47,683 nt of DNA from a virus: IMG/VR virus record IMGVR_UViG_3300018080_000256, positions 1-47,683 of that record; one strand, given 5' to 3'. The notes below the pieces were generated by a model. That model searched no databases. It was given only the letters and a program-made list of their open reading frames with translations, and was not told the DNA's origin. Position numbers and translations under genes: made by a program. Positions 4,176 to 45,938 of this stretch are shown here, piece after piece; position 1 is the stretch's first letter; the number at the start of each line of letters is the position of its first letter.

Positions 4176-5918
4176 TCACTTCCTCCGCTTCACCCCGAAG
4201 GCGTCCTGCAGGTCCTTGGTGAGGCTCCCGGGGGGCAGGCCCGCCTCGAGAATGGCCTTCTTGATGTCCTCGAGCTTCTTGCTCTTGCTGACCTCGACCC
4301 CGAGCTCCCGGGCGATGACCAGGACATCGACCTTCCGGTGCTCGTCGAGCATGTCGGCCGAGACCTCGAACGTGTTGGCTGCTTCGACGAGGAGGGCCGT
4401 GGTCGGCTCCCAGGCGGCGATCTCGGCGAAGGTCCGGGTCGAGAGAACGTCATAGACCCCGATCGCCTCCGTGCAGCGCGCGAGACCGTCGTAGTTCAAT
4501 TTCTCGAGCTCGGCGGGCGCCGCCGGGTCCGCCCAGAGGTTCTGCTCCTCGGGCGGGAGTACTCCGAGCATGCTCATGAGCCAGAGGCGCGCCGCCGTCC
4601 CGCTTCTGCCGCCGTGCGTGCCGCCTCCGCCGGCGAGAGACCAGAGCGCGCAGGCATCGAGGGGTTCGCAGGCGAACCTGCCGTCCACCTCGAGGAGATC
4701 GAAGCATTCCGCCTCGAGGGCAAGCGCAAGGGTGAAGGCTATGTGCGCGTTCGCGAAATCCCGGGCCACCTCCCGGCGCTTGTCCGGGTCGCCTTCAGGC
4801 TCCGAGGCCTCGGTGTCGGAGCGCTTGCTCGCCCCTTTCTTCTTCGCCGCCCGCTGCGCCGTGGACGATTCCGAGCGCCTGGTCGTGCCCCAGAACCAGG
4901 TCCCGACCTTTTTCCCCGAGATCCGCAGGCAGGGCTTGGCCCCCTTGGCGGACTTCTTGCACCCGAAGACCTGGTAGCTCGAGAGCGCCTTCTTCGCCAT
5001 GTCCTTCGGAATATCGCCGGTCCTGTAGACGTCCTGGACGAAGACGACGTCCCCGTGCTTCTTCTTCAGCTCGTCGGCCTTCGCCTTCAGGAAGGCGCCG
5101 TATTTGCGCGCCCAGCATGCGGGGTCCAAGCACCGGTCGTTACCGTTCTTGGTCTTATCCAGATCGGGGAAGAGGAAGGGCTTCCTCGAGGAACGGTTGC
5201 TGCAGGCCGAGCAGGCGGGGGTCTTCTCGAGGATGGCCTGGTCGGCGAGGTTCCAAGGAGCCGCGGAGAGGTCCCGCAGGAAGGCGGAGAGGTACACCTC
5301 GAGGCCTGTCAGTGATTCTATCTCCCCGATCGCTAAAGGGTCGTCCAGGTCCTCGAGCACCTCGTTCTGGACCGCGCCATCCATGCGGGCGATCCGCTCG
5401 AGGTAGGTCGCCGGCCAGAGGGCGAAGTTGGAGTCCTCCTTGGAGAGGGCCTTTCGCCATTTGTCCGTGAGCGCCGTCAGCCGGGCCCGGCGATAGACCC
5501 ACCCCTCGCTCTTGCCGATCTGGGCCGCAATCGTTTGCACCTCCCACCCCCCATCGAGCAGGGCCTGCACTCCCTTGGCCTCCTCGAGGGGATGGAGGTC
5601 CTCCCGCTGCAGGTTCTCGGTGACCGTGACCTCCAGGGCCTCCCGGTCCGTGAGATCTCGCACGATGCAAGGGATGGTCTTGATGCCGGCGAGCTGGGCC
5701 GCGGCGTGACGTCGCGCGCCGGCGCGGAGGTCGTACTTGCCCTTCTTCGCCGGGTGCGGCCGGGCGAGCACCGGCTGCAGCACGCCGAGCTGCTTGATGC
5801 TGTCGGCGAGGTCCTTCAGGGCCGGGTCCTTCTTTCGGATGGTCCGTGGGTTGTCCGGGGTCGGTATCAGGTCCGCCACGGCGACCGCGGCGAGCCCCTC
5901 CTGTGCTTTCGTTGCCAT
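4176..5918 (-). CDS. Large ParB-like protein with cysteine-rich insert
   Basis: The protein has 580 residues. Residues about 10-110 form a ParB N-terminal domain (ADLIPTPDNPR, then RAGARRHAAA and ENLQREDLHPLEE). A helix-turn-helix follows at about 125-165 (TIAAQIGKSEGWVYRRARL). Two cysteine pairs near 233 and 266 (CSACSNRSS and CLDPACW) suggest a zinc site. The C-terminal half is long, helical and of unknown function. Such phage ParB-like proteins act in DNA binding or partition-like steps, and some ParB folds bind CTP, but no partner ParA is visible. The start is preceded by GAGGAGGCACGCATG, a leader shared with several other genes here. Confidence 0.82.
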   Translation of the reverse strand: MATKAQEGLAAVAVADLIPTPDNPRTIRKKDPALKDLADSIKQLGVLQPVLARPHPAKKGKYDLRAGARRHAAAQLAGIKTIPCIVRDLTDREALEVTVTENLQREDLHPLEEAKGVQALLDGGWEVQTIAAQIGKSEGWVYRRARLTALTDKWRKALSKEDSNFALWPATYLERIARMDGAVQNEVLEDLDDPLAIGEIESLTGLEVYLSAFLRDLSAAPWNLADQAILEKTPACSACSNRSSRKPFLFPDLDKTKNGNDRCLDPACWARKYGAFLKAKADELKKKHGDVVFVQDVYRTGDIPKDMAKKALSSYQVFGCKKSAKGAKPCLRISGKKVGTWFWGTTRRSESSTAQRAAKKKGASKRSDTEASEPEGDPDKRREVARDFANAHIAFTLALALEAECFDLLEVDGRFACEPLDACALWSLAGGGGTHGGRSGTAARLWLMSMLGVLPPEEQNLWADPAAPAELEKLNYDGLARCTEAIGVYDVLSTRTFAEIAAWEPTTALLVEAANTFEVSADMLDEHRKVDVLVIARELGVEVSKSKKLEDIKKAILEAGLPPGSLTKDLQDAFGVKRRK

Positions 5919-18132: not shown

Positions 18133-19272
18133 ATGCCTTTCTTCTGGCGCAAAGTCCGGACAGCCAACGGCGTGACCAAGGTGCCTTACGTCCGCATCTA
18201 CTTCGCCGGCACCGACCGGGCGCGCTCCATCAAGGAGATCTGGCCGCACAAGCGGAAGAAACCGCCGGCGAGGATCGTCGCCCTCGCGGAGGCCGAGATC
18301 TACAGGGAACTCGAGCAGCCGCAGAAGCCCCGTCGCGGGACGAGCGAGGCCCTGCGCACGGCCGAGAAGTACCTGGAATGGATGCGGGCGAGCAGGAGCG
18401 ACGGCCATTTCGAGCACGTTGACTTCGCCGTCCGGAACGCCTGCGATGCGATCGGCACGGAGACGATAGGGGAGTGGACGCTTCGGGAACTCGAGGACTA
18501 CCTCCACCAGGGGAGGACCGCGGCCGGCTGGGCGGAGGATCGGAGACCCTGGTCCGCCCGCACATACAACCTCCACCTCGGCATGCTATCCCACTTTCTG
18601 AGCTGGGCCGTGAAGCGCGGGATCATCGAGGCGAACCCGGCGAGGGAGGTGGAGAAGATCCGGGGCGAGAAGAAGCAGCCCCAGTACGTCGCCGAGACCG
18701 ACATCCCCGCGCTACTCAAGGCCTGCGCGGCTCAGGACGCCGAGCTCGAGAAACGCCCCTTCTCCCTCGAGGAGGTGGTCACCGTCGCCCTGGGCACCGG
18801 CGCCCGGATCTCCGAGCTGGTCGGGCTCCGATGGGAGGACGTGGATCTCAGGAAGCGCCGGGTCCGCTTCACCGGCAAGGGGAAGAAGGACAGGACCATC
18901 CCGATCTCGGCGATGGCAGGCAGGGTCCTGAACAAGACCAGACGCCGGAAGAACGGCCCGGTCTTCCCCGGCCTGAACCGGGACGCCCGTCCCCTGAAGA
19001 GGGCCATCACGGCCGCCAAGATCCCCGTCGAGGGCGGTTGGCACCTGCTCAGACACACCTTCGGGGCCCATGCGGCCTCCCGCGGGGTCCCCCTGAGGGT
19101 CCTAAGTTTTTTTCTCGGGCACTCGTTTTTTCGGACCACGGAGCTCTATTCCCACCTGATTCCGTCCGAAATGGACGGCGCGATGGACCTGGTGGACAAG
19201 GCCCTCTCCGTGACACCTGACCGTGACAGTCGCAAGAAAAAGGGCCGCAAGCGCAAGCGCAAGCGACCCTAA
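18133..19272 (+). CDS. int: Tyrosine integrase
   Basis: The protein has 379 residues. An N-terminal arm-binding region (1-60) and core-binding region (about 65-180) precede the catalytic domain. The active-site set is complete: Arg in GTGARISELVGLRW (near 225), Lys in GKGKKDRTIP, HLLRHTF (near 303-309), the LGHSFFRTT histidine (near 330) and Tyr in LYSHL (near 337). The C-terminal tail is very basic (RKKKGRKRKRKRP). The ATG follows the TIR stop codon without a gap. It integrates or excises the phage at a tRNA 3' end, as the adjacent att core shows. Confidence 0.93.
   Translation: MPFFWRKVRTANGVTKVPYVRIYFAGTDRARSIKEIWPHKRKKPPARIVALAEAEIYRELEQPQKPRRGTSEALRTAEKYLEWMRASRSDGHFEHVDFAVRNACDAIGTETIGEWTLRELEDYLHQGRTAAGWAEDRRPWSARTYNLHLGMLSHFLSWAVKRGIIEANPAREVEKIRGEKKQPQYVAETDIPALLKACAAQDAELEKRPFSLEEVVTVALGTGARISELVGLRWEDVDLRKRRVRFTGKGKKDRTIPISAMAGRVLNKTRRRKNGPVFPGLNRDARPLKRAITAAKIPVEGGWHLLRHTFGAHAASRGVPLRVLSFFLGHSFFRTTELYSHLIPSEMDGAMDLVDKALSVTPDRDSRKKKGRKRKRKRP
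19208..19229 (+). repeat. attP arm-type repeat pair (left arm)
   Basis: CCGTGACA occurs at 19208-19215 and 19221-19228, a 13-bp period, inside the last codons of the integrase gene. The same octamer pair with the same period appears on the other side of the tRNA-derived core. This is the layout expected for integrase arm-type binding sites. Confidence 0.6.
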
Positions 19273-24124: not shown

Positions 24125-27100
24125 CTATGTCCTGAAGTTGAGCGACCAGGTCGTCGGCGAGGTCGAATGCGGCTGCGTGGCCGTGTCGCTCGCGGGATTG
24201 CTCGAGTACTGGTCGGTCGTGGTCTTCGCGGCGATCCAGTACGTGACGCTGTAAGCCGTCGCCAGGCATGGCGAGCTGTACCGCGTCTCCGTCGTCGTGG
24301 CGACGACCTCGGCCATGTCCCATGTGACCCCCGCCCTGATCTCGTAATGCAGGAAATCCGGGCACCCCGAGATCGCGTCCCACGCGAATGAAATCGTGTA
24401 CCCGTTGTTCGTCGCGCTGAACCCGGTGACGTCGGGCGGGGGGATCAAGTAGGGCGTGATCGTCACCGTGTCGTTCACGCCGTCGTCCGGGTGCATCCCC
24501 GGGCCGCCGGGCGCACGGCTGACCACGGAGATCCTGTACTGCTCCCCGGGGGCGAGCCCGTTCCCGATCGTGTACGAGCTGTCGGAGGTCCGCCCGTGGA
24601 ACTCGTACCCGGTTGATCTCGTTTCGAGGTACTGCCTTGACTGCACCTGGTGGTTGCCGACCTCCGTGATGTAGATCTCGGTGGAATAGGCGCAGATCCC
24701 GGAGGGATAGGAAAACTCGTCGCGCAGGTAGCCGTCGTGGCCGGTTCCCACCTCGTCCTGGTAGGCGAAGTCCGAGAAGGCGCGGCGCTGGATCCGGTGG
24801 TTCTCGTAGTCGGTGACCCAGACGTAGGTGCCGTCCGTGTCCACGTACATGGGCTTGTCGAAGGCGTTGCTTCCCGCGCCCGCCTGTGTCGTCCAGGTCC
24901 CGCCGCCCGATCCCACCAGCCCGTCGTCCACCTTGACGATCCTGTCGTTTCCCGTGTCCCCGACGATCAGCATGGAGGTGGAATGGGAGATGCCCATCGG
25001 GCGCTCGAACTGATCGGCTCCGCCGCCCTGGGCCCCGAGCGTCGTCCAGGTCCCGCCGCCGGCCCCCACAAGGGCGTCATCCACCTCCACGAGCCGGTGG
25101 TTATACGTGTCGCAGACGAAGACGGAGCTGCCGGCGTGGCAGATCCCCATGGGCGTATTGAACTGGTCGTTCCCGGCGCCGGTGGTCCCGAGTTTCGCGA
25201 CGAACGCGCCGGCGACCGTCAGCTTCTGGATCCTGTCGTTGCCCGAATCCGGGACCCAGATGTGCGTGCCGTCCGTGCAGACATCGTGGGGATTCACGAA
25301 CTGTCCGTTCCCGGTGCCGGCGCTGCCGAGGTTCGCGACGAAGGAGAGGTCCGCGAGGAGCAACTTTACGATCCGGCCGTTGCGCGTGTCCGCGATGTAG
25401 AGATAGGTCCCGTCCGTGCAGCAACCGTGAGGCTGGCTGAACTCGCCGTTAGAGGAGCTCGGAATTCTGTAATCCGAACCCTGGACGAGAAGCTGACCGC
25501 TGAGTTCCTTTATCCAGACCTCCGCGTCGTAGGGGCTCGCGCTCTCAGGCTTGGTGAAGGCGACGTCCACGATGTAGTTGATGGTCCGGTCCGAGTTCAC
25601 GCTGCTCGATGCGGAGAGGGTCAAGTCCTCGACGTCCGGAGGGATCACGTCGCGGCGCGGGAGAGTGGATTCGGTGAACGTGGGCAGGGTCCCGTAGTCG
25701 TCCACGTAGTAGGCCTCGTCGTCCTCCTCCGCCTCGATCTCGAAGAACAGGTCCGTCATCATGCGAACCGCGGTCACGCGGTACCGGCCGAGCGTCCCGA
25801 TGGCGTAGATCTCGTCCTCGGCCGGGTTGCTGGTCCAGGTCGCCGGCGAGATGCTGAGCGTGCGATAAGTGCCCGCCGCGCTGGTGATCGTCGCCGTCTC
25901 CTGGGTGTCGTCGCTGTGACGGATCCTGATGGACTCCCCGCCGGAAATCGTGACGTCGTAGTCCAGGGTGATCGTGCTCGCCGTGCTCGAGACGACCCGG
26001 CCGCCCCAGACCCCGTCGCCGCTGATCTCGTGCTGGAAGCGGAAGACGTCGCCCACCTCCATGTCGAGGGCCTCGATCCCCATCTCGAACTTGATCGGGT
26101 CGCCGGCGTAGCGGAGGCGCTTGAGCCGGAAGTAGCACTCGCGGTATGCGTGGGAAGGCCTGGTCACGCCGTACATCTCGAGTTCCCCGGTCACCAGGTC
26201 CTCGCTGTTCGAGTAGGCGTCCGGATCCTCGTGGTGGGCGACGTCCCTTCTGTAGTCGAGGTCCTCGTTGAGGAAGATCACGTCGAGGGCGTTCGGCCTG
26301 TCCCCGGTCTCGGGATAGGACCGGACGAAGGAGCCATCCACGATATTGCCGTGCGTGACGAGCTGCACGGGCGTTTCTGCCTTGAGAGGCACGACCGTGA
26401 TGTATGACCCGTAGCGGACGATCCAGGCCCGGCCGCATTTCCCGATGCGCTCGAGGGCGTCCCAGCCGTTCTCGCGGCCGTCGAACACGAAGTCGAAGTG
26501 CGCGCGCTCCTCCATGTGCTCGACGTCGTGTTTCTCCGCCTGGGTGTGGTTGTAGGCGAGGTTCGTCTTGGTCGTGAAGCTGACCCCGGCGTTGACCGTC
26601 TGTATCTGGATCTCCTCTTCTTTCGCCCCGCCCCTGTTGACGATGGTCCAGTCGTCGGCGGAGAACCCCGTGGTATCGTCCACGAAAAGCGTGTTCGTTC
26701 CGGCGTTGCTGTTCTGGTCTACGTTCACCAGGTACCGGCCGGACACGACCTGGTCGGCACAGAACTGGTGCCATGACCAGAATGCCGAGAGGTTCACGCC
26801 GCGCGGGGTCAGGGCCGTCACGTTGCCCGTGGCGCCCGAGTCCACGCCCTGCAGCGCCCCGTACGGGAGCCCCTGCGTGGAATCCACCGTCAGGGTCGGC
26901 GAGGACCATGAGACGACGGTACCGAGAAACTGATAGTCGGAGGCCGCACTCTGCACGGTCTCTCCCGGGGTGAACGCGCCGGCCACCCCGCCCATCGTGA
27001 GTTCGAGACGCCGGTCTATGTACTTCGCCAGGCCCCAGCGCTCGTTGTAGAGCAGGCCCAGCATGAGGTCGGCGGGGTTCTGCGTATGGGCCGCGGCGCT

Positions 27101-28294
27101 CATGGTCGAGGCCGATGCCATCTCCTGGACGATCACGCCGTCCACGTCGAAGGTCAGGTTCGGCGGGTCCCCCGTGAGCTGCTCGGTCGCGACCTCCTCG
27201 ACGGCCGCCACGGCGGTGTTCACGTAGCGGAGATCTTCGAAGAGGACCTCCTGGAACTCCTTCACGTAGGCGTCGCAGTACCGGCGGTTCGCGGCGTCGT
27301 GGTCGTTCGTGACCCTCGTGATCTCGACGTCGTAGGTGTCGGTGGAAGGGAAGTCGCCCTCGATCCAGATGGAGAACGGCTCGCGCCGCCGTATGTCCTC
27401 GTCGTGGTAGACGTAGGAGGACCAGGCGCCGGGGCCCGCGTGCGTCCGGTACCTCAGAGAGACGCTGAAATAGGAGGAGTGAGCGTGCCCGCTATGGTCG
27501 AGGTAGTAGAGCCCGGAGGTGAACGTCACCTTGATGCGGTAGCGGTCCGCGTTCGTGGATCCGGAGAGCGTGACGGGCGTGGCCCGCACGAGTTGGTTGT
27601 TCTTCGCGGTGGCCGTGACGATCTCGTTGTGGCCCGGAAGCGCCGTCTGCGAGTTCGTGCCGGTCCTCGAATAGAACGAGGTGCCGGAATAGCTCGAGTA
27701 CGAGACTCCGTTGATGTAGGCCGCGTTGATCCCGGAGATCGGCCCCTCGGAACAGGCTACGATGTTGTAGAGCTTGTCCTGGGAACTCGTTGCCGGCCGG
27801 GTGAACTGCGAGACCACGGTGCCGCCGACCCGGTGCCTGCCCATGACCACGGGGATCGGCTCGCCGTCGTCGTAGTTGTTCTCGATTATGTCGAAGGCGT
27901 AGGTGGGGCCGAGCCTGCCGGACTTCTCGATCCGCTTGGCCTTGGGCTGGACGGCGTACTTGTTGATCGCCCACTCGCCGCCCTTCAGGGCGAGCCCCAC
28001 GGCGAGGGAGACCCCGGCGCCGATCAGCGCAGCGGCGACGCCCCCCGCTACGGGCCTCAGCGTCAGGCGATCGCCCGGGCCGACTTCGCGCTCGCGCCAG
28101 CCCTGCTCGTCGAGCTCCTCGCCGTTCAGCTTCACGCTGAGGATGTCGAGCGCGTGGTACTCGTCGGGGATGTAGTCCCAGACCTTCTCCCCGGGCCGAA
28201 CCTTGTGCGTGACCGACGGGCCTATAGGCCCCTGGTAGAGCACGAGGTCGGCTTCAAGCTCTTCTTCGGTGTACTGACAGCACGCGGTCAGCAT
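24125..28294 (-). CDS. J-like tail-tip protein with NHL propeller and FN3
   Basis: The protein has 1389 residues. An N-terminal ubiquitin-like part (about 1-80, KVRPGEKVWDYIPDEYHALD) and a hydrophobic helix (about 85-105) resemble the lambda I/K-J entry. Residues about 130-750 form the J-type tail hub. A domain shared with two other virion proteins lies near 515-590. Residues about 950-1230 hold six NHL repeats with the F-x-x-P-x-x-x-x-x-D...N-x-R pattern, for example GTYLYIADTRNGRIVKL and THIWVPDSGNDRIQKL, enough for a six-bladed beta-propeller. Two fibronectin-III-like segments follow to the end. It should form the central tail spike that contacts the host. The start has GGGAG upstream and overlaps the K-like gene by 41 bases. 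Confidence 0.87.
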   Translation of the reverse strand: MLTACCQYTEEELEADLVLYQGPIGPSVTHKVRPGEKVWDYIPDEYHALDILSVKLNGEELDEQGWREREVGPGDRLTLRPVAGGVAAALIGAGVSLAVGLALKGGEWAINKYAVQPKAKRIEKSGRLGPTYAFDIIENNYDDGEPIPVVMGRHRVGGTVVSQFTRPATSSQDKLYNIVACSEGPISGINAAYINGVSYSSYSGTSFYSRTGTNSQTALPGHNEIVTATAKNNQLVRATPVTLSGSTNADRYRIKVTFTSGLYYLDHSGHAHSSYFSVSLRYRTHAGPGAWSSYVYHDEDIRRREPFSIWIEGDFPSTDTYDVEITRVTNDHDAANRRYCDAYVKEFQEVLFEDLRYVNTAVAAVEEVATEQLTGDPPNLTFDVDGVIVQEMASASTMSAAAHTQNPADLMLGLLYNERWGLAKYIDRRLELTMGGVAGAFTPGETVQSAASDYQFLGTVVSWSSPTLTVDSTQGLPYGALQGVDSGATGNVTALTPRGVNLSAFWSWHQFCADQVVSGRYLVNVDQNSNAGTNTLFVDDTTGFSADDWTIVNRGGAKEEEIQIQTVNAGVSFTTKTNLAYNHTQAEKHDVEHMEERAHFDFVFDGRENGWDALERIGKCGRAWIVRYGSYITVVPLKAETPVQLVTHGNIVDGSFVRSYPETGDRPNALDVIFLNEDLDYRRDVAHHEDPDAYSNSEDLVTGELEMYGVTRPSHAYRECYFRLKRLRYAGDPIKFEMGIEALDMEVGDVFRFQHEISGDGVWGGRVVSSTASTITLDYDVTISGGESIRIRHSDDTQETATITSAAGTYRTLSISPATWTSNPAEDEIYAIGTLGRYRVTAVRMMTDLFFEIEAEEDDEAYYVDDYGTLPTFTESTLPRRDVIPPDVEDLTLSASSSVNSDRTINYIVDVAFTKPESASPYDAEVWIKELSGQLLVQGSDYRIPSSSNGEFSQPHGCCTDGTYLYIADTRNGRIVKLLLADLSFVANLGSAGTGNGQFVNPHDVCTDGTHIWVPDSGNDRIQKLTVAGAFVAKLGTTGAGNDQFNTPMGICHAGSSVFVCDTYNHRLVEVDDALVGAGGGTWTTLGAQGGGADQFERPMGISHSTSMLIVGDTGNDRIVKVDDGLVGSGGGTWTTQAGAGSNAFDKPMYVDTDGTYVWVTDYENHRIQRRAFSDFAYQDEVGTGHDGYLRDEFSYPSGICAYSTEIYITEVGNHQVQSRQYLETRSTGYEFHGRTSDSSYTIGNGLAPGEQYRISVVSRAPGGPGMHPDDGVNDTVTITPYLIPPPDVTGFSATNNGYTISFAWDAISGCPDFLHYEIRAGVTWDMAEVVATTTETRYSSPCLATAYSVTYWIAAKTTTDQYSSNPASDTATQPHSTSPTTWSLNFRT

Positions 28295-30137: not shown

Positions 30138-32117
30138 TCAGGCCCTCACCAATCCGTTGGGGTTGTCGTCGAGCATTTGCATCATGGCACCCCTGAGCGC
30201 CGGAAGGTTCTGCATGATGGCCCGGTTTGCGTCCTTGCCGTCCCAGGCCTGCACGCTGAAGTGAACGTTGATCTGGTTCCCGCCCCCTCCCCCGCCCTTC
30301 ATCTCGACCGGGACCTTGCCGGAGCGCAGTGGGATGTGGGCTTCGGGACCGGCCTCGCCGCGGAGAACGAACTCTGGGCGCCAGGAGATCCCGCCATCGG
30401 CGAAGGCGCGGTAGCCGCCCGGGACAGCGAATGCGGGGCGGCCGGCGGTCTCGAAGACCCCGCCGTGTGCGGCGCCGGTGATCGAGGAGACGGCCACCTG
30501 CATCGCCGCCCGGAGGCCCGTCTGTATCGCCATGTTCGCGAGGCTTCGCAGGATGTCCTTGAGGTACTGCGAGGCGGGCTTCAGCGTGCCGTCCACCCAA
30601 TCGTTGAAGGCGGCGAGGACCGTGTTGATCATCACGTCGCCGATCTCGAGGAGCGTCTGCTTGACCGCCTGAAGGCGCTCGAGACGCTGGCGCTGGCCTT
30701 CCTTGTCCTTCTCGGTGGCCCGGTCAATGTAGGCGTCGAGCCGCTCCATGGCCTCCTGGCTTCTCTGGATCTGCTCGACGTCCACGATGGGGAGGTTTGC
30801 ATTGGAGAGGTCGAAGTCCGGGAGGGCCGCGCGCTCGTTGATGTCATTGAGAATGCTGTCGAGCTCGCCAAGGGCGGCCCTCTTTTTGTCCAGATAGGGC
30901 ATGATGCCCTTCCCTCGCCTCTCCTCGGCGGTGAAGTACTTGGCCCATTCGATCCGGTAGTCTTTGACCTTGTCCTTGCCCTGCTCGAGCTCGTCGAAGA
31001 AGTTCTTCGCCGCGGTTGCGTTGTGGCCGAAGTTGTCCGTCAGGTGCTTCGTGTCCGTGATGAGAAGTTTCAGGTTTTCGCTGATGTCGGAGACTGTTTC
31101 CGCGGCAGAGGCCCGAGCCCTCTCCAGGCTGTCGGTCGAGAGGCCGAAGGCGTCCGCGATCAGAATCAGCCCCCCAAGGAATTTCTCTGCCAGCCAGTTC
31201 CAGGCATAGAAAAGGGAATTGCCGCCGATGGCGAGCGCGTTGATGCCGATTCGGATTGCATCTATGGCGTCGAGCACGTGCGCCGCTCCCACCCCGACCC
31301 ACCTGATGGCCGTGATGATCTTCTCGGCGATCTCGGGAGCCTTCTTGTCCATGTCACCCATGCGGATGTTCACCTGGTCCATGCCCGCCTTCAGGTACTC
31401 GAAGACCCCACCCTGCATTACCTTGACCTGAAACTCCCACCACTGAGAGGCGAGGAGCGCCGTCATGCCCCGCCAGTCCTTCTCCGCGCGCTCCATCGCG
31501 CCGGGGAACCGCTTCTCCCAGATCTCGAGGATCCCCGCCCGGATCGCCTCCGCGGTCTTGTCCGTCTCTATGCGCATGTCCCCCGACATGAGGACGGCCC
31601 GCTTTCCAGTTCGGTCGAGCTGTATACCGAGACGGCGGAGGACCTCCGTTTCGAGGCCGATCAGGGCGGTGGACACGTCGGAGATGTTCCGGTCGAAAAT
31701 GTATGAGACGTCCCCCACGGTGCGGATCATGCTTTGCGAGACGTCCACGCCCACGGCCTTGAGTTGCACGTATGCCTGGATCACATCGGAGGTCATGTGC
31801 GGCGTCGCCGCCGCGAATTGTCGGACCCATTTGAGCGTGGAGTCCGCCAATTGCTCGTTCTGGTCCATGACCGCGACGAGCTGCGTCCGGAACTTCTCCG
31901 CTTCCGCGCCGGCGTCTATGAACGACTTGGCGAGCATCCCGCCGCCGGCGGCGACCAGCAGGCCCTGGAGGGAGCCGACGATCCTGAAGATGGACTTGAA
32001 GGTGCCGCGCACCCGGTCGCCGAAGCGCTGGACCACGCCGAGGACACGCGAGAATTCCCGCGTCACCATGTCCTTCGCGCTGAGGATTACTCGGAGCTGT
32101 GTGTCTGAGATGAACAC
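30138..32117 (-). CDS. Tape measure protein
   Basis: The protein has 659 residues. The N-terminus (FISDTQLRVILSAKDMVTRE, FSRVLGVVQRFGDRVRG) and the Gly-rich hydrophobic segment SLQGLLVAAGGGMLAKSFID are typical of phage tape measures. The middle is helical. The C-terminus carries AHGGVFETAGRPAFAVPGGY and EAGPEAHIPLRSGKVPVE, common in lambdoid tail length proteins. From the family rule of about 1.5 angstroms per residue, a tail near 100 nm is expected (inference). It follows the frameshifted chaperone gene, which overlaps its start by 31 bases. Confidence 0.9.
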   Translation of the reverse strand: MFISDTQLRVILSAKDMVTREFSRVLGVVQRFGDRVRGTFKSIFRIVGSLQGLLVAAGGGMLAKSFIDAGAEAEKFRTQLVAVMDQNEQLADSTLKWVRQFAAATPHMTSDVIQAYVQLKAVGVDVSQSMIRTVGDVSYIFDRNISDVSTALIGLETEVLRRLGIQLDRTGKRAVLMSGDMRIETDKTAEAIRAGILEIWEKRFPGAMERAEKDWRGMTALLASQWWEFQVKVMQGGVFEYLKAGMDQVNIRMGDMDKKAPEIAEKIITAIRWVGVGAAHVLDAIDAIRIGINALAIGGNSLFYAWNWLAEKFLGGLILIADAFGLSTDSLERARASAAETVSDISENLKLLITDTKHLTDNFGHNATAAKNFFDELEQGKDKVKDYRIEWAKYFTAEERRGKGIMPYLDKKRAALGELDSILNDINERAALPDFDLSNANLPIVDVEQIQRSQEAMERLDAYIDRATEKDKEGQRQRLERLQAVKQTLLEIGDVMINTVLAAFNDWVDGTLKPASQYLKDILRSLANMAIQTGLRAAMQVAVSSITGAAHGGVFETAGRPAFAVPGGYRAFADGGISWRPEFVLRGEAGPEAHIPLRSGKVPVEMKGGGGGGNQINVHFSVQAWDGKDANRAIMQNLPALRGAMMQMLDDNPNGLVRA

Positions 32118-32497
32118 TGCGGCCTTTTCTCCTTCTTCCCCCGGCCCTTCTTGCGCTTGGCTTCCTCGAGGTAGCTGCCGATCATTCGCATCGCCTGGAG
32201 ATACACGTGGGCCTGGTCATAGAGCCCCGCCCCCCGGCGAGTGGTCACGTAGTGCCCTTCGACGAATTGCCAGTAGAGCTCCACCAGCCGGCGAGATCTC
32301 CGCGTGACGAGGGCCATCGGGCATTGGTTCACCTCGATTTCCCACTGCGAGCCCTTGTAAAGCACCCACCTCCAAGGGCTGTCAGGGTCCGGGTCGGGCT
32401 CGCATTTCCAGACGGTCTTGAGCGAGGGGTCCGCCGCGCACCTGGAGCAGTCCCGGACGAAGCCGTTGTCTGCCGCCAGGTAGGCGGCGATCCTCAG
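32087..32497 (-). CDS. Frameshift extension of the tail assembly chaperone (T part)
   Basis: This is the -1 frame downstream of the slippery site in the preceding chaperone gene. It is open without stops from 32497 (LRIAAYLAADNGFVRDCSRC) to 32087. It adds 136 residues, giving a G-T-like fusion of 286 residues. It carries CSRC and WKCE cysteines, a basic tail and no good independent start: the first candidate (GTG at 32365) would discard protein-like sequence upstream. Lambda and many other long-tailed phages make such a fusion to load the tape measure with tail tube subunits. Confidence 0.78.
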   Translation of the reverse strand: MRIAAYLAADNGFVRDCSRCAADPSLKTVWKCEPDPDPDSPWRWVLYKGSQWEIEVNQCPMALVTRRSRRLVELYWQFVEGHYVTTRRGAGLYDQAHVYLQAMRMIGSYLEEAKRKKGRGKKEKRPQCSSQTHSSE

Positions 32498-32946
32498 TTT
32501 TTTGCTTCTTCCTCAGCGACGGTGTTCCCGTTCTCGATAGCCGCGGAGATGAGCGACCGTTGCGTCGGGTGCAGGTGCCGGATGTTCTCCCAGGGGCACA
32601 TGCCGTCCGCGCCGGGCTTGACGAACTCGAGTTTCTCTCCCTGCTTCCAGAAGTTCGTCCAGCCCTTCAGGCCGATGCGAAGAAGCGAGAGGTTGCGGCT
32701 GCCCGCCTTGGTGTTCACCTTGATCCCGCCGCGGGACTGCTTGCCGCCCTTCTTCTGCTCCTTGACGAGCGCCTCCATCTTGGCGATGTCCGCGGCGCTG
32801 AACTCGATGGCGTCCTCGATCTGCGCGTACTCGTGCTCGTCGAGGGTCGCCAGGTGAAAGACCGAGCGTTTGGGGTCGTCCAATTCCCTGCCTTCGTCCT
32901 CCGGGAGTACGAAGTCGAACTCCCCCGGTATGAATGCCTCTGCCAT
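32494..32946 (-). CDS. Tail assembly chaperone (G-like)
   Basis: The protein has 150 residues. It begins MAEAFIPGEFDFVLPEDEGR and is helical with charged patches; the end reads NTVAEEEAKN. Its place between tail tube and tape measure is diagnostic. The last sense codons GCA AAA AAC before TGA contain the slippery heptamer, so a fraction of ribosomes enters the following frame. The start uses the GGAGGCACGCATG leader. An in-frame extension upstream is the shadow of the intergenic region. Confidence 0.8.
   Translation of the reverse strand: MAEAFIPGEFDFVLPEDEGRELDDPKRSVFHLATLDEHEYAQIEDAIEFSAADIAKMEALVKEQKKGGKQSRGGIKVNTKAGSRNLSLLRIGLKGWTNFWKQGEKLEFVKPGADGMCPWENIRHLHPTQRSLISAAIENGNTVAEEEAKN
32497..32503 (-). 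promoter_or_regulatory. Programmed -1 ribosomal frameshift site
   Basis: The minus strand reads GCA AAA AAC TGA in the chaperone frame, giving the heptamer A-AAA-AAC immediately before the stop. After a -1 slip the next codon is CTG, and the new frame stays open for 136 codons. The in-frame stop next to the slippery site should help the pause. No strong downstream pseudoknot was identified by eye. Confidence 0.82.
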
Positions 32947-32981: not shown

Positions 32982-33923
32982 TTACGTCAGGGCGAGGCTC
33001 CATTCGTCGTCCCCCGAATTCTTGTTGAGAGAGAGGGGGAGCTGCATGTAACCCAGGTCGTCGATGTTCTGCGGCTCGGGGACCTCGATCTGGCACTTGG
33101 GCAGATTGAGGGTGATGATGTTCCCCGCCGCGCCGAAGGGCCCGAATACCAGCGCCGACTCCGTGCCGGCCGTTGCGAGCCCGAAGAAGTCCTTGGTGGC
33201 CACGAGCTCGTCCTCGACCACGAGAACGGCCGAGGGCTCGCGCCTGGAGATGACCACGCTCTTGATGCCGTTCGCGGTCGTGTAGTCGGGCCGCGCCACG
33301 AGGATGTTCCCGAAGTTGACCTCGAGCGACTTACCGAGAAGGTTGGTCCCACCGAAGGTGAAAGTGCCGCCGACCAGGGCCGTCGCAATCGTGTCCTCGT
33401 AGGAAACTGCGGAGATGAGCGCCGTGTCGGTCCGCGCGTTGTAGCCGCCCAGGGCCTCGAAGCGGACCATGGGCACCTCGCCCGCATTGAAGACCATCGT
33501 GGGATTGCACCGCGCTCCGTTGAGCAGGTAGCGGTGGCCGTCCACGTACAGGGCGATCGTCAGGCTCTTGTCGTCGGTCGAGGAACTCGATGGCGTGTAC
33601 GTGACGGAGGTCCCCGCCGATATCGCCTCGTTCGTCAGGGAGCCGTTGAGCAGCTCGCCCCAGGAGGGGGCGGTGCCCGCCGCGCCGCTTCCGGCCATCG
33701 GCACGTCGAAGGTGAGCCTCCAGACGCGGGGCCCCATCGGCGAGCCTTTGAACTGGCTCAGCGAGGACGAAATCGCCCGCGACTTGCGGAAGGGCCACTC
33801 GGCCCGTATCGTCGGGTTCTCCACGCGGATCTTCGCCTCGGCTGCCGTGAGGGCTTCCGCCGAGCCTTCGGTCGTTTCGACCTTGACGGCGAGCTGGCCC
33901 TCGCTCCATCTCATCGTGGCCAT
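32982..33923 (-). CDS. Major tail tube protein
   Basis: The protein has 313 residues and is beta-rich throughout. It opens MATMRWSEGQLAVKVETTEG, a common entry for siphophage tail tube proteins, and contains AEWPFRKSRAISSSLSQFKG and WRLTFDVPMAGSGAAGTAPS, then repeated Thr/Gly-rich strands. Position before the chaperone and tape-measure genes supports the call. The gene starts at GGAGGACTGATCCATG, where TGA is the stop of the previous gene. Confidence 0.85.
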   Translation of the reverse strand: MATMRWSEGQLAVKVETTEGSAEALTAAEAKIRVENPTIRAEWPFRKSRAISSSLSQFKGSPMGPRVWRLTFDVPMAGSGAAGTAPSWGELLNGSLTNEAISAGTSVTYTPSSSSTDDKSLTIALYVDGHRYLLNGARCNPTMVFNAGEVPMVRFEALGGYNARTDTALISAVSYEDTIATALVGGTFTFGGTNLLGKSLEVNFGNILVARPDYTTANGIKSVVISRREPSAVLVVEDELVATKDFFGLATAGTESALVFGPFGAAGNIITLNLPKCQIEVPEPQNIDDLGYMQLPLSLNKNSGDDEWSLALT

Positions 33924-35515: not shown

Positions 35516-38500
35516 TTACGTCAGTTCGACCTTCCTCGCGCCGACGTCCGCGTCCTGGATCACGAGGTAGGTCTTGTCGTCGTCCGTGTCCCTCCAGATC
35601 AGGAGTTCGCCCTCCTGCGCGGCGGGCTGTGCAGCCTGGGAAACGCGCCTTACCTTCACGTAGCCGCTGTTCGTGTAGGCGTCTATTGATTTGCTCGCGG
35701 CGACTGTCACGCTTCCCGCCGTATCCACGTTTCCGTCCTTATCCACCGCGAATTTTTCCACGCCGTTTACCTGTCCGCGGAAGAAGTCGCCGGAGAATCC
35801 CGTCTCCATGTCGGCGTCGAAGGCGATGGCGTCCGCGTTCGCGCTGTCCCCGTGCGCCTCGAATGCGACCATCGCCTGATTTGCCCCGCCGAGGTCGGAG
35901 CGGATACCGACCGCCGCCGCGTCCTGCGTGTCGGAAAGAATCGAGGTGATGAGACCGGACGTGTGAATGTTGTTTGCCGCGCACACGGACAGGGCGGTTC
36001 CAGCCACGCCGGACTGGTAGATGTGCAGGCCCGTCCCGCTGGGGGCGGTCGTCGCATCCCAGTCGTAGGCCGTGTTTGCATTGGTGATGAAAATGCCGGA
36101 GTTGGTCCCGGCCCCGGAGTTTTCGTCCACCGCGACGAGCAGGGCCGTTGCGTTGTTCGCTGAGTTCGTGTTGTTCGTGTCGAGCGAAACCAATGTCCCG
36201 CTCAGGTCCGTCGCGTGCCCGGAGATGGTCAAGCCGGTCCCGGTCGAGCCGCCCGTGGCGCTGGCACCCCAGGCGAAGCCGTTGTTATCCACATACGTCT
36301 TGACGGCCTTCTCGGTGGGAACGGCGGAATCGCTGTTATCCCCGAGCGTCCCGTCCGTCGAGAACTCGTTCACCGCGTTTGTCAGTGTAAGACTCGTCAG
36401 CGTCGGCGTTGCGCTCCATGCCGGGGCGGTGGTTGCGCCCTGGGAAACGAGGACCTGCCCCGCCCCAACCGCCGCGAGCGCTCCGTAGGTGGTCGCCGCC
36501 GTGGCGTAGAGCAGGTCGCCCACCGCGTGACTCTGCCCCGCGAGGGAGGTCAGGTTCGCGTCGAGCGGCTGATAAATCGTGGCAAGCGCATTGCCGTTGA
36601 TGGTGATGTCGTTCGTGACCTCCAGGTCCGTGGTCCAGACCTTCGTGACGCGTGAGCCGGTCGCGGCGATGCTCCCGGTCAGGGTCAGGCTTCCGGCACC
36701 GAGGGCGAGCCCGGCGAAGGTCGGGGAGGCGCTTTGCTGCACGTCCTGGTCGAGCGTGCAAGCCGCCGAGACGGTGAGGTTCGCGTCCACGTCCACCGTC
36801 GCAGCGTTGACGTCAATAATCGCCGTGCCCTTGGTGATGTTCCAGTTGTTCGCGGCTTCCGTCAGTTGCACCGTCGTCTCGATCACGGCGTCCGGCGTTC
36901 CGTTGGTCGTGTATATCGCGTTCGCGGTCGTGTACCCGCCCGGGGTGTCGGTGAGTTCGGTGAACTGGTCCTTCGCTGCTACGGCGCCGTCCACGTAGGT
37001 CTTGACCGCCTTCTCGGTGGGAACGGCGTCGTCCGAATCGTCGCCGAGGGTGCCGTCGGTGCTGAACTCCGTGATCGTCGTCCCGGCAGAGAAGCCGAGC
37101 GTCGAGGTGCAGGTTATCGCCCCGCCGAAGCTCGCGGTCCCGCCCTGATAGAACTTGAACTCCTGGGTTCCACCTGCGCTGAAATACTGGTTCGTCCCCG
37201 CCGCCCCCTGAAGCCTTGCCACTTCCTTGATTGACTGGTCGTCGTTGTCGCACGCCCCGAAGTAGATGAAATCGTCGTCCACGGTCCCGGTGCGAAGGGA
37301 TGCGCCGTCGGCGAGGGTCAGGTTGCCGCTGTTGTCGATCTTCGCCTTGAACGTCGCGTTGGCATACGTGGCATCCGTCGAGGTGCCGAAGAAGGCGAGG
37401 AGCTGTTCCCCGGTGCCGACTGAGTTCTCCCAGCGGGTGACCGCGAAGTCCACGCCGGAGGCGTCATTCGTCTGTGTGTACTTCGGCCGGATGTGAAAAC
37501 CGACCAGGGTCTCGCCCGTGCTTTGCGTCATCTCGCCGGTGACGGCTTCGATGACGGAGTCGGAGTTGGAGAAACCTTTGTCGTGAAACGTGATCGTTGC
37601 GCCTGTATTTGTCGTAACCTTCCTGCACGCGACAGTGCCCGACCCGCTTGCGCCAGCGAAAATTGCGCCACTTGCATAAATGTTGCCGCCACTGCTCACC
37701 CAGAAAGTGTCCGTCGCCGCCGCCCCGTTTTTGCTGCTCCGCAAATACCACGTTGCGGATGTCGTCGCGGCTGACGCGGGCACCACCTCCTGCCAGAAAT
37801 CCCACGTATCCGCCGATCCGTCCGTGTCCCAAGCGTGCGCCCGCTGCCTGAACCTCGGGCTGTACTGCTCCGTCGTCCCCACTGTCGCCGCCGTCGCGTT
37901 TTCGAGGACGAAGCCGTCCGTGGAGGTGGTCTCGATCCCGTCCTGGTGAATGCCGACGTGGCCCCGGGTGCCGCTCGTCGTGCCGCCGGGGTAAATCTTG
38001 AAGGTGCCGCCCGTGCCGCTCCCGTGCGCTGCGCCCATCTCCCAGATCAGGCTCCCGCCGTCGGTGTTGTTATCGAGCCCGCTCTGCGTGGCGATGTACG
38101 AGTCCCGGCCCGCGACCGTGGTCAGCGAGTTGAAGCCGGAAACCGTCGCGCTCGATATTGCGATTGCGTCCACGGCAGCGTTGCCCGTCGTGTTGTGGCC
38201 GAGGATGAGCGAGTTCGCGGGCATGTTGGCGAGGTCTTTGTTGTAGCGGAGGCGGGCCTCCTGGGCCGTGCCGAGGTAGAGGCCGGAGGTGGAGACGGAG
38301 CCGGTGGATGTGTCTTCGCCGAAATAGCCGGAAAGCCATTCCGTTGTAGAACTTCCAATGCCGTAAGCATTGGCTTGGTGTGGTCGGAAGGCGGTTGACT
38401 CGGCTCGGCACTTCGGAGTGCCGCCCAGGGCCAAAACAACACTAGTTCCTGACTTTTCGTCAATCCACACATAGGATCCACCATGCCGTATTTGCAGTTC

Positions 38501-40384
38501 ATGCGTCCCCGGCGTCCCGCCCGGCTGCCGGATGATCACCGTCCCGTCCGCGCCCGCATCCCCCGTCCCGCTCTCTGCCCCGCCGTCCCCCGGTTCCAGC
38601 ACGATCGGCCCGCCCGCTCCGCCGTCATTGTCCCCTGCCGTCGCATCGCCGCCCTCGCCCGCCTTGATGTAGAGCCCTGCGCCCGCGTAGCCCGTGCCCG
38701 CCGCGTTGTCAGCGCCGGACTGGGCACGAAGATAGGTGGAGGTTCCGGCTGCGGCTGTGGCGACGAACTCGGAGACGGAGGCGTCGTCGAGCTTGAGCAG
38801 GGCCGTTCCGCCCCACTTGAGCTCCATGGGGTCGGTGGTGTCGAGGAGGATGGCCCCGGCGGAGTCGAGGGTGATGTCGCCGGAATCGCTCTGAATCGTC
38901 CCGCCGCTCGTCAGCTCGATATCCCCGGCGAGGGTCAGCTTCGTCGTCGAGAAGTTGGCGTAGGACGTGCCCCCGAGGACCATGTGGAGCGTATCGCTCG
39001 CCCAGCCAATCCCGGTGTCCATCTCGGCCTTGTCCGGGATCAGGGTCGGGTTTGTGTCCGTCGCCGCTTCGTCCGCGAAGGCGGGACCCGCGGCGTTGCT
39101 GGCCTTGATCGAGCCGGTGAATTTGTGGTCCCCGGTCCCCGCGACGTAGACCGCGTCCGTCTGGTCGTGCGTGAAAGAAACGTACTGCGTGTTCGCGCTG
39201 TCCGGGTCCGTCGCCGAGTGGATTATCAGCGTCGGGTTTGCCGCCGCCGCGTGGTCGTAGTCCTGCCCCGCGAGGGCCTGGTCCCCGATGATCAGCGTCT
39301 TCGAGGTCGTGTGAAGGCCCCAGACCATCGTCTCGGAGGCGGCCTGCGCCGTGTCCATCTTGAGGGTGGAGTCCGGCGCGGCTTTCGTGTTGCCCCATTT
39401 CAACGGCACGTCGTCGCCGAGGAAGATCCCGCCGACTGGCGTCATGGTGCCCGTCTTGTCCACGTCGAAGACGGAGGAGCCCGAATACCAGAGGTCGAGG
39501 ACGTAGACCTCGTCCCAGCCGGAATCATCGGTAACGGTCACGTCTCCGTGGAACAGGCGAAAATCGTCGGTGCCGCCCGCCGAGTTGTCGTTGAGGGTGC
39601 TCGTCACCTTGAGGGCGTAGTCGTCGGTGCCCGAGGCCGTGAGCTCGCCCTGGTTCAAGCTGAAGGCGTTCTCCGAGCCCGCCTCGAGGGTGATCCCCGT
39701 CACCGCGTCGAGGACGATTCCCCCCGCCCCGGTTGCGATCTCGAGGCCGGCGGTGAGGGAGGAGCCCGAGGCGATCGTAAACGTGTTCGCCGTGGTCAAC
39801 CCGGAATCGAGGAGCAGCTCCTTGTTCGAGGAGCCCGCCTGATCGTTGATCGCGAATGATCCCACCTTGAACGTGGCGGTGCCCGCTGCCCCGGTGCCCT
39901 GGAGGGCCCCGCCAGTGACGACGAGGGAGCCGCCGTTGTGATTCCCCGTGCCCCCGTCTCCCGCGTCCTGGAGTGTGATCTCGAGGTCCCCGCCGTCCGC
40001 GTCCACGCCCGACAGGGAGCGGAAGGTCCAGGTGTACTTGTCCGCCGCGACCCATTGCTGGATCGAGTCCGAATCGTCGCCCATGTAGATCTTGTCGCCG
40101 TCCCCGAGCAGGAGTGACGTGGCGACGTAGACCACGTTGTTGAGGTAGATGTTCCCGCTCCCGGCGGTGATGCGGATGTCGCCCGCGGCCGATGTGATGT
40201 CCAAGCCGTCGGTGCAGGCGCTCATGGACTGGATCGTCGCCCGGTTCGCCGTGGTGACCCCTATGTCCATCGAGAGGTATTTGTTCGTCGTCCGCGCCTG
40301 GTCGTAGACCTGGACCTGACCGGGCTGCAGCACGCCGGCAACGCCCCCACCGATGGGGAGCCAGAGAGGATTGTAGCTGTGCAT
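35516..40384 (-). CDS. Very long repetitive virion surface protein (1622 aa)
   Basis: The N-terminus (NPLWLPIGGGVAGVLQPGQV) looks like a small attachment region. The rest is low-complexity, rich in Gly, Ala, Thr, Asp and Ser, with repeated short beta-strand motifs suggesting a trimeric or beta-helical fibre. One motif (STDGTLGDDSDDAVPTEKAV near 1110 and STDGTLGDNSDSAVPTEKAV near 1345) occurs twice and is typical of phage fibre proteins. There is no C-terminal chaperone or peptidase. It lies between neck genes and the tail tube gene, not at the tail tip, so a head or neck appendage (whisker-like) is possible. The start has GAGGATACGAG upstream. Confidence 0.7.
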   Translation of the reverse strand: MHSYNPLWLPIGGGVAGVLQPGQVQVYDQARTTNKYLSMDIGVTTANRATIQSMSACTDGLDITSAAGDIRITAGSGNIYLNNVVYVATSLLLGDGDKIYMGDDSDSIQQWVAADKYTWTFRSLSGVDADGGDLEITLQDAGDGGTGNHNGGSLVVTGGALQGTGAAGTATFKVGSFAINDQAGSSNKELLLDSGLTTANTFTIASGSSLTAGLEIATGAGGIVLDAVTGITLEAGSENAFSLNQGELTASGTDDYALKVTSTLNDNSAGGTDDFRLFHGDVTVTDDSGWDEVYVLDLWYSGSSVFDVDKTGTMTPVGGIFLGDDVPLKWGNTKAAPDSTLKMDTAQAASETMVWGLHTTSKTLIIGDQALAGQDYDHAAAANPTLIIHSATDPDSANTQYVSFTHDQTDAVYVAGTGDHKFTGSIKASNAAGPAFADEAATDTNPTLIPDKAEMDTGIGWASDTLHMVLGGTSYANFSTTKLTLAGDIELTSGGTIQSDSGDITLDSAGAILLDTTDPMELKWGGTALLKLDDASVSEFVATAAAGTSTYLRAQSGADNAAGTGYAGAGLYIKAGEGGDATAGDNDGGAGGPIVLEPGDGGAESGTGDAGADGTVIIRQPGGTPGTHELQIRHGGSYVWIDEKSGTSVVLALGGTPKCRAESTAFRPHQANAYGIGSSTTEWLSGYFGEDTSTGSVSTSGLYLGTAQEARLRYNKDLANMPANSLILGHNTTGNAAVDAIAISSATVSGFNSLTTVAGRDSYIATQSGLDNNTDGGSLIWEMGAAHGSGTGGTFKIYPGGTTSGTRGHVGIHQDGIETTSTDGFVLENATAATVGTTEQYSPRFRQRAHAWDTDGSADTWDFWQEVVPASAATTSATWYLRSSKNGAAATDTFWVSSGGNIYASGAIFAGASGSGTVACRKVTTNTGATITFHDKGFSNSDSVIEAVTGEMTQSTGETLVGFHIRPKYTQTNDASGVDFAVTRWENSVGTGEQLLAFFGTSTDATYANATFKAKIDNSGNLTLADGASLRTGTVDDDFIYFGACDNDDQSIKEVARLQGAAGTNQYFSAGGTQEFKFYQGGTASFGGAITCTSTLGFSAGTTITEFSTDGTLGDDSDDAVPTEKAVKTYVDGAVAAKDQFTELTDTPGGYTTANAIYTTNGTPDAVIETTVQLTEAANNWNITKGTAIIDVNAATVDVDANLTVSAACTLDQDVQQSASPTFAGLALGAGSLTLTGSIAATGSRVTKVWTTDLEVTNDITINGNALATIYQPLDANLTSLAGQSHAVGDLLYATAATTYGALAAVGAGQVLVSQGATTAPAWSATPTLTSLTLTNAVNEFSTDGTLGDNSDSAVPTEKAVKTYVDNNGFAWGASATGGSTGTGLTISGHATDLSGTLVSLDTNNTNSANNATALLVAVDENSGAGTNSGIFITNANTAYDWDATTAPSGTGLHIYQSGVAGTALSVCAANNIHTSGLITSILSDTQDAAAVGIRSDLGGANQAMVAFEAHGDSANADAIAFDADMETGFSGDFFRGQVNGVEKFAVDKDGNVDTAGSVTVAASKSIDAYTNSGYVKVRRVSQAAQPAAQEGELLIWRDTDDDKTYLVIQDADVGARKVELT

Positions 40385-44606: not shown

Positions 44607-45938
44607 CTACGCGCCGCGCGCGTCGGCCATGTACACGCAGGCCGCCGGGTGCTTCACGCCGACGTCCACGAGCTTCAGGCAGCGGATCCAGGTCATGTTC
44701 TTCTCGAAGGCGTCGGACGTCTCCGAGGACGCGGCGACCTCGAGGGTGCCCCACTCTCCGATGATGATGTAGGGCCAGTTGAGCAGGTAGATCTCCGAGC
44801 AGTCCGTGTTCGAGCCCTTGGTCAGGTTGATCGGGATCTGCGTCGAGGTCTCGATGGGGAAGCCGTTCCAGTCCTTCTCGATCTTCCGGCGGACCTCCCC
44901 TTCGGAGCCGATGAAGTAGGGCCTGGACTGGCTGTCGGCCCACTGCCGGATGGCGCTCCAGGAGCGCGGGTGCATGGCGAGCCCGACCTTGTCCTGGTCG
45001 CTGTTGGCGAGCTCCAGCTTGTAGAGCATCTCCTCGAGCTTCGCCTTGGTCGGGGTGGCGCCGTTCACGCCCATGGCCACCGTGGAGATCGAGCCCGTGT
45101 TCGCGATCCCCGTGGGCTGGTTCGCGGTCCCGCTTCCCCGGAAGACGGCGAGGTCGATGAGAAGGCCCACCGTCTTGGCGAGGTTGCGCTGGATGTAGGC
45201 CGCGGCCTTCGGGTTCGACCAGTTGAGCAGGGAATTGGAAACCTTGGTCATCCCGGCCGCTTCCTTCGGGGTGAGGGAGGGCTGGTCCAGGACCATGTCC
45301 GAATCGGTGATGGCCGCAGCCTCGCCGACCCAGTACCCGGTCGTGGAGGTGGTCTCGCGGGAGTACTTCACCGTCCCGACGAGGTTCTCCCACACGTCGG
45401 CCCCGAGCTTGTACGTGATCATGTACGCCCGGAGCTTCTCGACGAGCAGGGCCATCTGCATCTCGGGTACCGTGTACCCGCCGGCGGTGCCCGTCCCGTA
45501 GGTCATGGCTTTCTGCCGGGTCGCGAGCATGGTCTGCTCGTAGGTGAACCCGGCGTTCTTGTACGCGGGGCTCCCCTTGGGGATGAGGTGCTTCGCCGCG
45601 GCCTCGGGTCCGCCCAGGCGGCTGCCGAGGCAGACCATGCGCATGAACGCGGTCCAGTCCCAGTCGCCCTCCGCAGCCTTCTGCTCGGGGGTCCGGTCGT
45701 CCACCGTCACGGGCATCTGGTACCCGAGCATGGGGTTGCCGGAGATCGGGGCAACGAACTTGCCTTCGGTTCCGAGTTCGCCGGCCTCGGCGATCTTGAC
45801 GAGGTCGGCCTCGAGTTTCTCGAGCCGCCCGTCGGCCTTTTTCTGGGCCTCCTCGGCCTGCTTCTTCATTTCGACGACCGCCGCCGGCACGCCCTTGAGC
45901 GCGTCGAGCAGGGCCTTCATCTCGGGTGAAAGTTCCAT
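44607..45938 (-). CDS. Major capsid protein, HK97 fold
   Basis: The protein has 443 residues. A coiled-coil delta domain (residues about 1-55, MKKQAEEAQKKADGRLEKLE) precedes a capsid core containing GTAGGYTVPEMQMALLVEKL, TTSTTGYWVGEAAAITDSDM, GSGTANQPTGIANTGS and KVGLAMHPRSWSAIRQW, the standard HK97-type landmarks. The delta domain is probably removed by the adjacent protease during maturation. The gene order protease-capsid-decoration supports the assignment. Confidence 0.92.
   Translation of the reverse strand: MELSPEMKALLDALKGVPAAVVEMKKQAEEAQKKADGRLEKLEADLVKIAEAGELGTEGKFVAPISGNPMLGYQMPVTVDDRTPEQKAAEGDWDWTAFMRMVCLGSRLGGPEAAAKHLIPKGSPAYKNAGFTYEQTMLATRQKAMTYGTGTAGGYTVPEMQMALLVEKLRAYMITYKLGADVWENLVGTVKYSRETTSTTGYWVGEAAAITDSDMVLDQPSLTPKEAAGMTKVSNSLLNWSNPKAAAYIQRNLAKTVGLLIDLAVFRGSGTANQPTGIANTGSISTVAMGVNGATPTKAKLEEMLYKLELANSDQDKVGLAMHPRSWSAIRQWADSQSRPYFIGSEGEVRRKIEKDWNGFPIETSTQIPINLTKGSNTDCSEIYLLNWPYIIIGEWGTLEVAASSETSDAFEKNMTWIRCLKLVDVGVKHPAACVYMADARGA

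Follow-up and report, generated by a model that had tools for sequence, protein, structure and literature searches.

Does the small chaperone-like gene ahead of the tape measure gene in this viral DNA end at its own stop codon, or is it extended into a second frame by programmed ribosomal frameshifting? The window (the whole 47,683-nt stretch analyzed here) reads GAG GAA GAA GCA AAA AAC TGA on its minus strand at 32514-32494, at the end of a G-like open reading frame (ORF) whose ATG at 32946 is preceded by GGAGG at 32956-32952. A preliminary description had placed the sequence GCA AAA AAC TGA at the end of this gene, and direct reading of the sequence confirmed its coordinates and lengths. G/GT tail chaperone systems are defined in part by a slippery heptamer, in frame and close to the 3' end of G, that gives access to an open -1 frame, and the window has one. 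A -1 slip on the heptamer would lead into CTG AGG ATC and onward through 136 open codons to a stop ending at 32087, giving a predicted G-T fusion of 286 amino acids; the end of this T extension overlaps the tape-measure ORF (GTG 32117) by 31 nt. The frame length, the overlap with the tape-measure start and the fusion length claimed earlier were all borne out by translation. The same is true of the expectation that a gene caller would report a truncated, separate T, since GTG 32365 is the first ATG, GTG or TTG of the -1 frame and opens a 92-aa ORF. Because the -1 frame contains a stop at 32515, it is open from only 12 nt ahead of the heptamer. The features of the locus are listed in Table 1.

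Table 1. Positions in the window of the tail chaperone frames, the proposed recoding signals and the adjoining tail genes.
Feature	Position	Strand	Basis
Tail tube protein gene	32982..33923	-	PF18906 Phage_tube_2, 32 bits (cut-off 27); phrog_290
G-like tail assembly chaperone ORF, 150 aa, ends ...EEEAKN*	32494..32946	-	Sequence, fold match, identity to L021 G
SD-like GAGGAAG, GAGG ending 7 nt ahead of heptamer, putative stimulator	32508..32514	-	Duplex -5.6 kcal/mol
Slippery heptamer A AAA AAC, 0 frame	32497..32503	-	Sequence; kept as AAAAAAC/GGGAAAC in relatives
0-frame stop TGA directly after heptamer	32494..32496	-	Sequence; most relatives also zero spacing
GC stem-loop GCCGCC-UACCU-GGCGGC, starts 8 nt after heptamer, putative stimulator	32472..32488	-	Folding; window copy z -1.4
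T extension, -1 frame, 136 codons plus stop, motif C-x2-C-x11-C-x26-CP	32087..32497	-	Translation; C17, C20, C32, C59
Shorter ORF from GTG 32365, 92 aa, expected gene-caller product	32087..32365	-	GGAGG SD-like in front, -10.2 kcal/mol
Tape measure protein gene	30138..32117	-	phrog_973 6.5e-22; tblastn to phage tape measures

The genes run in the order tube, G, T and tape measure, with the tube gene upstream and the tape measure gene downstream. After these come more genes for tail assembly, one of NlpC/P60 type and one J-like. This is the siphophage arrangement in which G/GT chaperones occur, and the pair lies, as in G/GT systems, between the genes for the major tail protein and the tape measure protein.

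Several other features of the window drew our attention. In the J-like tail protein encoded at 24125-28294 (minus strand), NHL-like repeats (PHGCCTDGTYLYIADTRNGRIVKL and others of this kind) give the impression of an inserted beta-propeller. A 1622-aa ORF at 35516-40384 (minus strand), rich in short repeats and with no Pfam match, has a fibre- or decoration-like look; with the head genes on one side and the tail tube gene on the other, it would be oddly placed for such a protein. A ParB-like gene (4176-5918, minus strand) and a tyrosine integrase gene (18133-19272, plus strand) are found beside an HK97-type capsid gene (44607-45938), which suggests from gene content that the phage may be temperate.

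In-frame heptamers of the form X XXY YYZ (Y = A or T) occur at 2 of 4764 codon positions in the tail genes of the window, the A AAA AAC site included. The 136 open codons had a probability of P = 0.026 in dinucleotide shuffles. Long open frames are not rare by chance because the DNA is 63% GC, and the open -1 frame alone is modest to weak evidence for a frameshift. The third codon position of the T extension is 84% GC, which is coding-like.

By tblastn the T extension weakly matched (E 0.1) an unannotated stretch of Alteromonas phage P24 that lies between the tube and tape-measure genes (L004, 4766-5074); the T part is absent from the public annotation. The small ORF of P24 finishes with A AAA AAC TAA, and 101 codons are open in the -1 frame. 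In nine more phages, found via the tube protein, G ends in A AAA AAC or G GGA AAC with TGA immediately after, and the site and open -1 frame are present in all ten phage records checked (P24 and these nine). The record of RcapMu marks a "potential -1 frameshift" at the corresponding spot.

A profile search with the tube protein returned 80 viral contigs and 80 prophage loci. At the phage and viral loci the chaperone ORF was picked blind to the heptamer, which yielded the site at 70 of 90, with five more recognized on closer look. All 75 have A AAA AAC or G GGA AAC at the end of the chaperone ORF, an adjoining stop and an open -1 frame; the other 15 comprise six too short to tell, three without an adjacent stop and six with a different type of T. 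Loci L017, L020 and L024 carry the heptamer or an A run and lack the adjacent stop. Zero-spaced AAAAAAC or GGGAAAC occurs at 61 of 79 prophage loci and AAAAAAA at one more, while several of those remaining have AAAAAAC, GGGAAAC or AAAAAAG at a spacing of 3-36 nt. With T-based loci added, and with zero spacing required by design, the loci with the site and an open -1 frame numbered 141, the window among them. They form 116 clusters at a T identity of 90% and 70 at 60%, and 45 of the loci have G GGA AAC instead of A AAA AAC. Of 2049 other ORFs, 19 also end in a heptamer; the AAAAAAC cases among these may be further copies of the same chaperone gene. The preliminary description had proposed a comparison with related phages, in which loss of the -1 frame would speak against frameshifting. 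The opposite was seen, as heptamer and frame are kept throughout the 141 loci. Separately, loci L015, L016, L018, L019, L023 and L088 are tube relatives with a T of another family (TDGDxTK and CRTCP motifs) and without the AAC-stop site; some of them have T TTT TTC further upstream, a possible slip site.

Conservation of the site and frame is accompanied by protein-level selection on T, measured in the relatives and not in the window. Of 14 pairings of related T regions, 12 gave a dN/dS under 0.3 and, by this measure, T is under purifying selection in the relatives. No close but non-identical relative of the window phage was found, and single-protein scans of viral contigs with window proteins returned the near-identical contig only; the figures for constraint on T accordingly come from pairs of relatives.

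The flanking sequences contain two candidate stimulators. As many as 15% of the positions in the window G pair as well as GAGGAAG, so the window copy alone is weak. Across the relatives, anti-SD pairing peaks 5-8 nt upstream of the heptamer, and the family mean for the best pairing is -4.75 kcal/mol versus -2.44 kcal/mol at matched positions within G (0 of 20000 permutations). On the other side of the site, the 50 nt from +5 have a family mean MFE of -21.5 kcal/mol versus -13.8 kcal/mol further on, and the mean fold z is -1.36 versus -0.04 (p about 1e-7). In one subgroup of 23, three pairs of the stem carry changes on both sides, consistent with compensatory change. An SD-like element and a stem-loop are the two kinds of stimulator found in dnaX and IS elements (PMC5009743, PMC4066793).

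We could find no Pfam or PHROG match for the window G, and tblastn of this protein against phages returned no match. It is nevertheless related to the G of L021 (26% identity, E 2e-10 as a single comparison). Several relatives have a G that matches Phage_TAC_4 or the tail-assembly-chaperone PHROG (phrog_313) and a T that matches DUF1799. A model of G built from nine sequences (mb6b47ffc2d32, pLDDT 72), the alignment consisting of the window and viral-contig proteins only, matched the HK97 chaperone 2ob9 with a middling Z of 6.3 (rmsd 4.5, 94 aligned residues). This is the only solved structure among the matches listed, and the named matches include viral tail assembly chaperones. The modelled G resembles the HK97 tail chaperone, with a Z that is insufficient to carry the case alone.

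The T extension of the window groups with those of P24, L020, L021, L024 and L073, of which P24, L021, L024 and L073 are distant relatives, and the single-comparison E-values are 3e-12 against the T of L021 and 9e-5 against that of L024. Residues C17, C20, C32 and C59 are invariant among seven relatives. It had been claimed that CxxC-like cysteines occur only in the extension; the CxxC pattern is indeed confined to it, but G has one cysteine too (MCPW). From the cysteine pattern, this C4 extension is possibly zinc-binding. The T model (pLDDT 60, falling below 50 at residues 28-57) is too uncertain to use for metal-site geometry, and it had no match in the viral structure library. The window T matched no Pfam or PHROG family, and a search of PDB sequences with the G and T profiles gave no credible match. 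Profile comparison with the DUF1799 (PF08809) type of T also gave no match, although the alignments were small and distant kinship is still possible. With neither a Pfam nor a profile match, the window T is unsupported as a DUF1799 homologue.

Taken together, the sequence, the synteny, the conserved site, frame and flanking signals, the selection on T in relatives and the chaperone-like modelled fold of G support the earlier reading of this locus as a frameshift of the lambda G/GT type. We predict with high confidence from these features that the tail-chaperone gene of the window phage uses a programmed -1 ribosomal frameshift. In the proposed mechanism, most ribosomes would pass through A AAA AAC in frame and terminate at the adjoining TGA, producing the 150-aa G. 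A minority would slip back one base on the heptamer and re-read its C as the start of CTG, producing the 286-aa G-T. The SD-like element upstream, the adjacent stop and the stem-loop downstream probably slow the ribosome at the site. In lambda, G exceeds G-T by about 30:1, and T serves as the link between tape measure and tube protein (PMC5009743). Systems of the G/GT type make the fusion at a low set ratio, and neither G nor the fusion is present in virions. By analogy with lambda, G would form a coat on the tape measure protein, and T, as part of the fusion, would bring in tube subunits; that slippage happens in the window phage, how often it does and what G and T do there are inferred.

How the ribosome might slip at this site is a further question. 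The preliminary description called the heptamer a textbook slippery sequence. This holds for mammalian ribosomes, with which A_AAA_AAC is strong, but for tandem slippage in E. coli it is weak and falls far short of A_AAA_AAG (PMC5009743, PMC4066793). Slippage from AAC to AAA is poorly tolerated in E. coli; even so, AAAAAAC or GGGAAAC is the site used by IS1, phiCbK and haloarchaeal viruses. As a variant of the frameshift reading, the peptidyl-tRNA might slip with the stop codon in the A site and not by tandem slippage in the A and P sites, as AAC is disfavored for tandem slippage in E. coli and zero spacing to the stop is the rule among relatives. A stop codon right after the heptamer may favor the slip by keeping the ribosome in place while AAC occupies the P site. 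It is not essential, because relatives without it exist: L020, L024, L122, L145 and L184 have A AAA AAC or G GGA AAC with no adjacent stop. We consider slippage with the stop in the A site possible but doubtful. Both modes yield the identical fusion frame.

Other explanations do not require the ribosome to change frame. T could be a separate 92-aa protein translated independently from GTG 32365, with the heptamer a coincidence. The strong SD-like GGAGG ahead of this codon would suit such a start, and annotations of several relatives give T as a CDS of its own. However, three of the four invariant cysteines precede GTG 32365, which argues against this start, as the product would lack T residues 1-44 and with them the conserved start of T. 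Moreover, the heptamer and a frame open right from it are kept across 70 lineages, and P24 has no annotated T CDS at all. We therefore think an independent T improbable. The fusion would also arise if the polymerase slipped on the A run during transcription and some mRNAs gained one base, and bacterial slippage of this kind on runs of about nine A's is known (PMC5009743). The six consecutive A's here are a short run, the G GGA AAC loci have no such run in the same position, and the SD-like and stem-loop signals suit slippage by the ribosome, not the polymerase. On these grounds we rejected transcriptional slippage as highly improbable. Homopolymers are error-prone in sequencing, but we can dismiss as barely conceivable an error in the A run that splits one continuous gene, since an independent contig (L002/L003; 99.95% identity over 3991 nt) has the identical six A's, its two base differences both fall outside the G/T frameshift region, and the relatives contradict an error, with isolate genomes keeping the two-frame layout.

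The lambda G/GT frameshift was reportedly described by Xu, Hendrix and Duda in 2004. It has since been reviewed (PMC5009743). The window resembles lambda in its gene order, its small G ORF, the predicted -1 slip near the end of G and the T extension reaching the tape-measure gene. In lambda, however, the heptamer is G GGA AAG and the stop lies 15 nt on, whereas in the window the heptamer is A AAA AAC and the stop is adjacent, and no sequence match was found between window proteins and lambda G or T. Burkholderia phage KL1 gp18/gp19 has GGGAAAC directly before the TGA of the first chaperone ORF (PMC3483164), and Acinetobacter phage Loki gp12/gp13 has AAAAAAC adjacent to the stop of its first chaperone ORF (PMC5313236). 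Both share with the window an AAC heptamer adjoining the stop, a likeness of site layout and not of compared proteins, but in both phages a further gene separates the chaperones from the tape measure. Rhodobacter phage RcapMu gp49/gp50 occupies the same place with the site G GGA AAC TGA; its T is of the DUF1799 type, whereas the window T is of the C4 type with no detectable profile match to DUF1799. The A6C frameshift of IS1 InsA/InsAB' offers a bacterial example of A AAA AAC (PMC12428005), but in a transposase gene and with the stop 15 nt downstream.

The AAC-stop arrangement has thus already been published for KL1 and Loki, and the window is a further case. We found no description of the generality of this layout across the group or of the C4 form of T, within a literature coverage that was incomplete. 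The C4 extension is the only mildly new element of the system. As a tentative proposal, the group may be characterized by a signal that departs from the common bacterial type, a eukaryote-type A AAA AAC or G GGA AAC touching the stop, with SD-like and stem-loop stimulators and a slip that perhaps occurs with the stop in the A site, and T in the branch of the window may be a zinc-binding C4 module.

With the window, a classic recoding system gains one more well-supported example. It also exposes gaps in annotation, T being omitted from the P24 record and shortened in others. The AAC-stop layout, present in 70 lineages at 60% T identity, forms a natural set for probing why these phages rely on a heptamer that is poor in E. 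coli, and the same set is suited to asking if the neighboring stop contributes to slippage.
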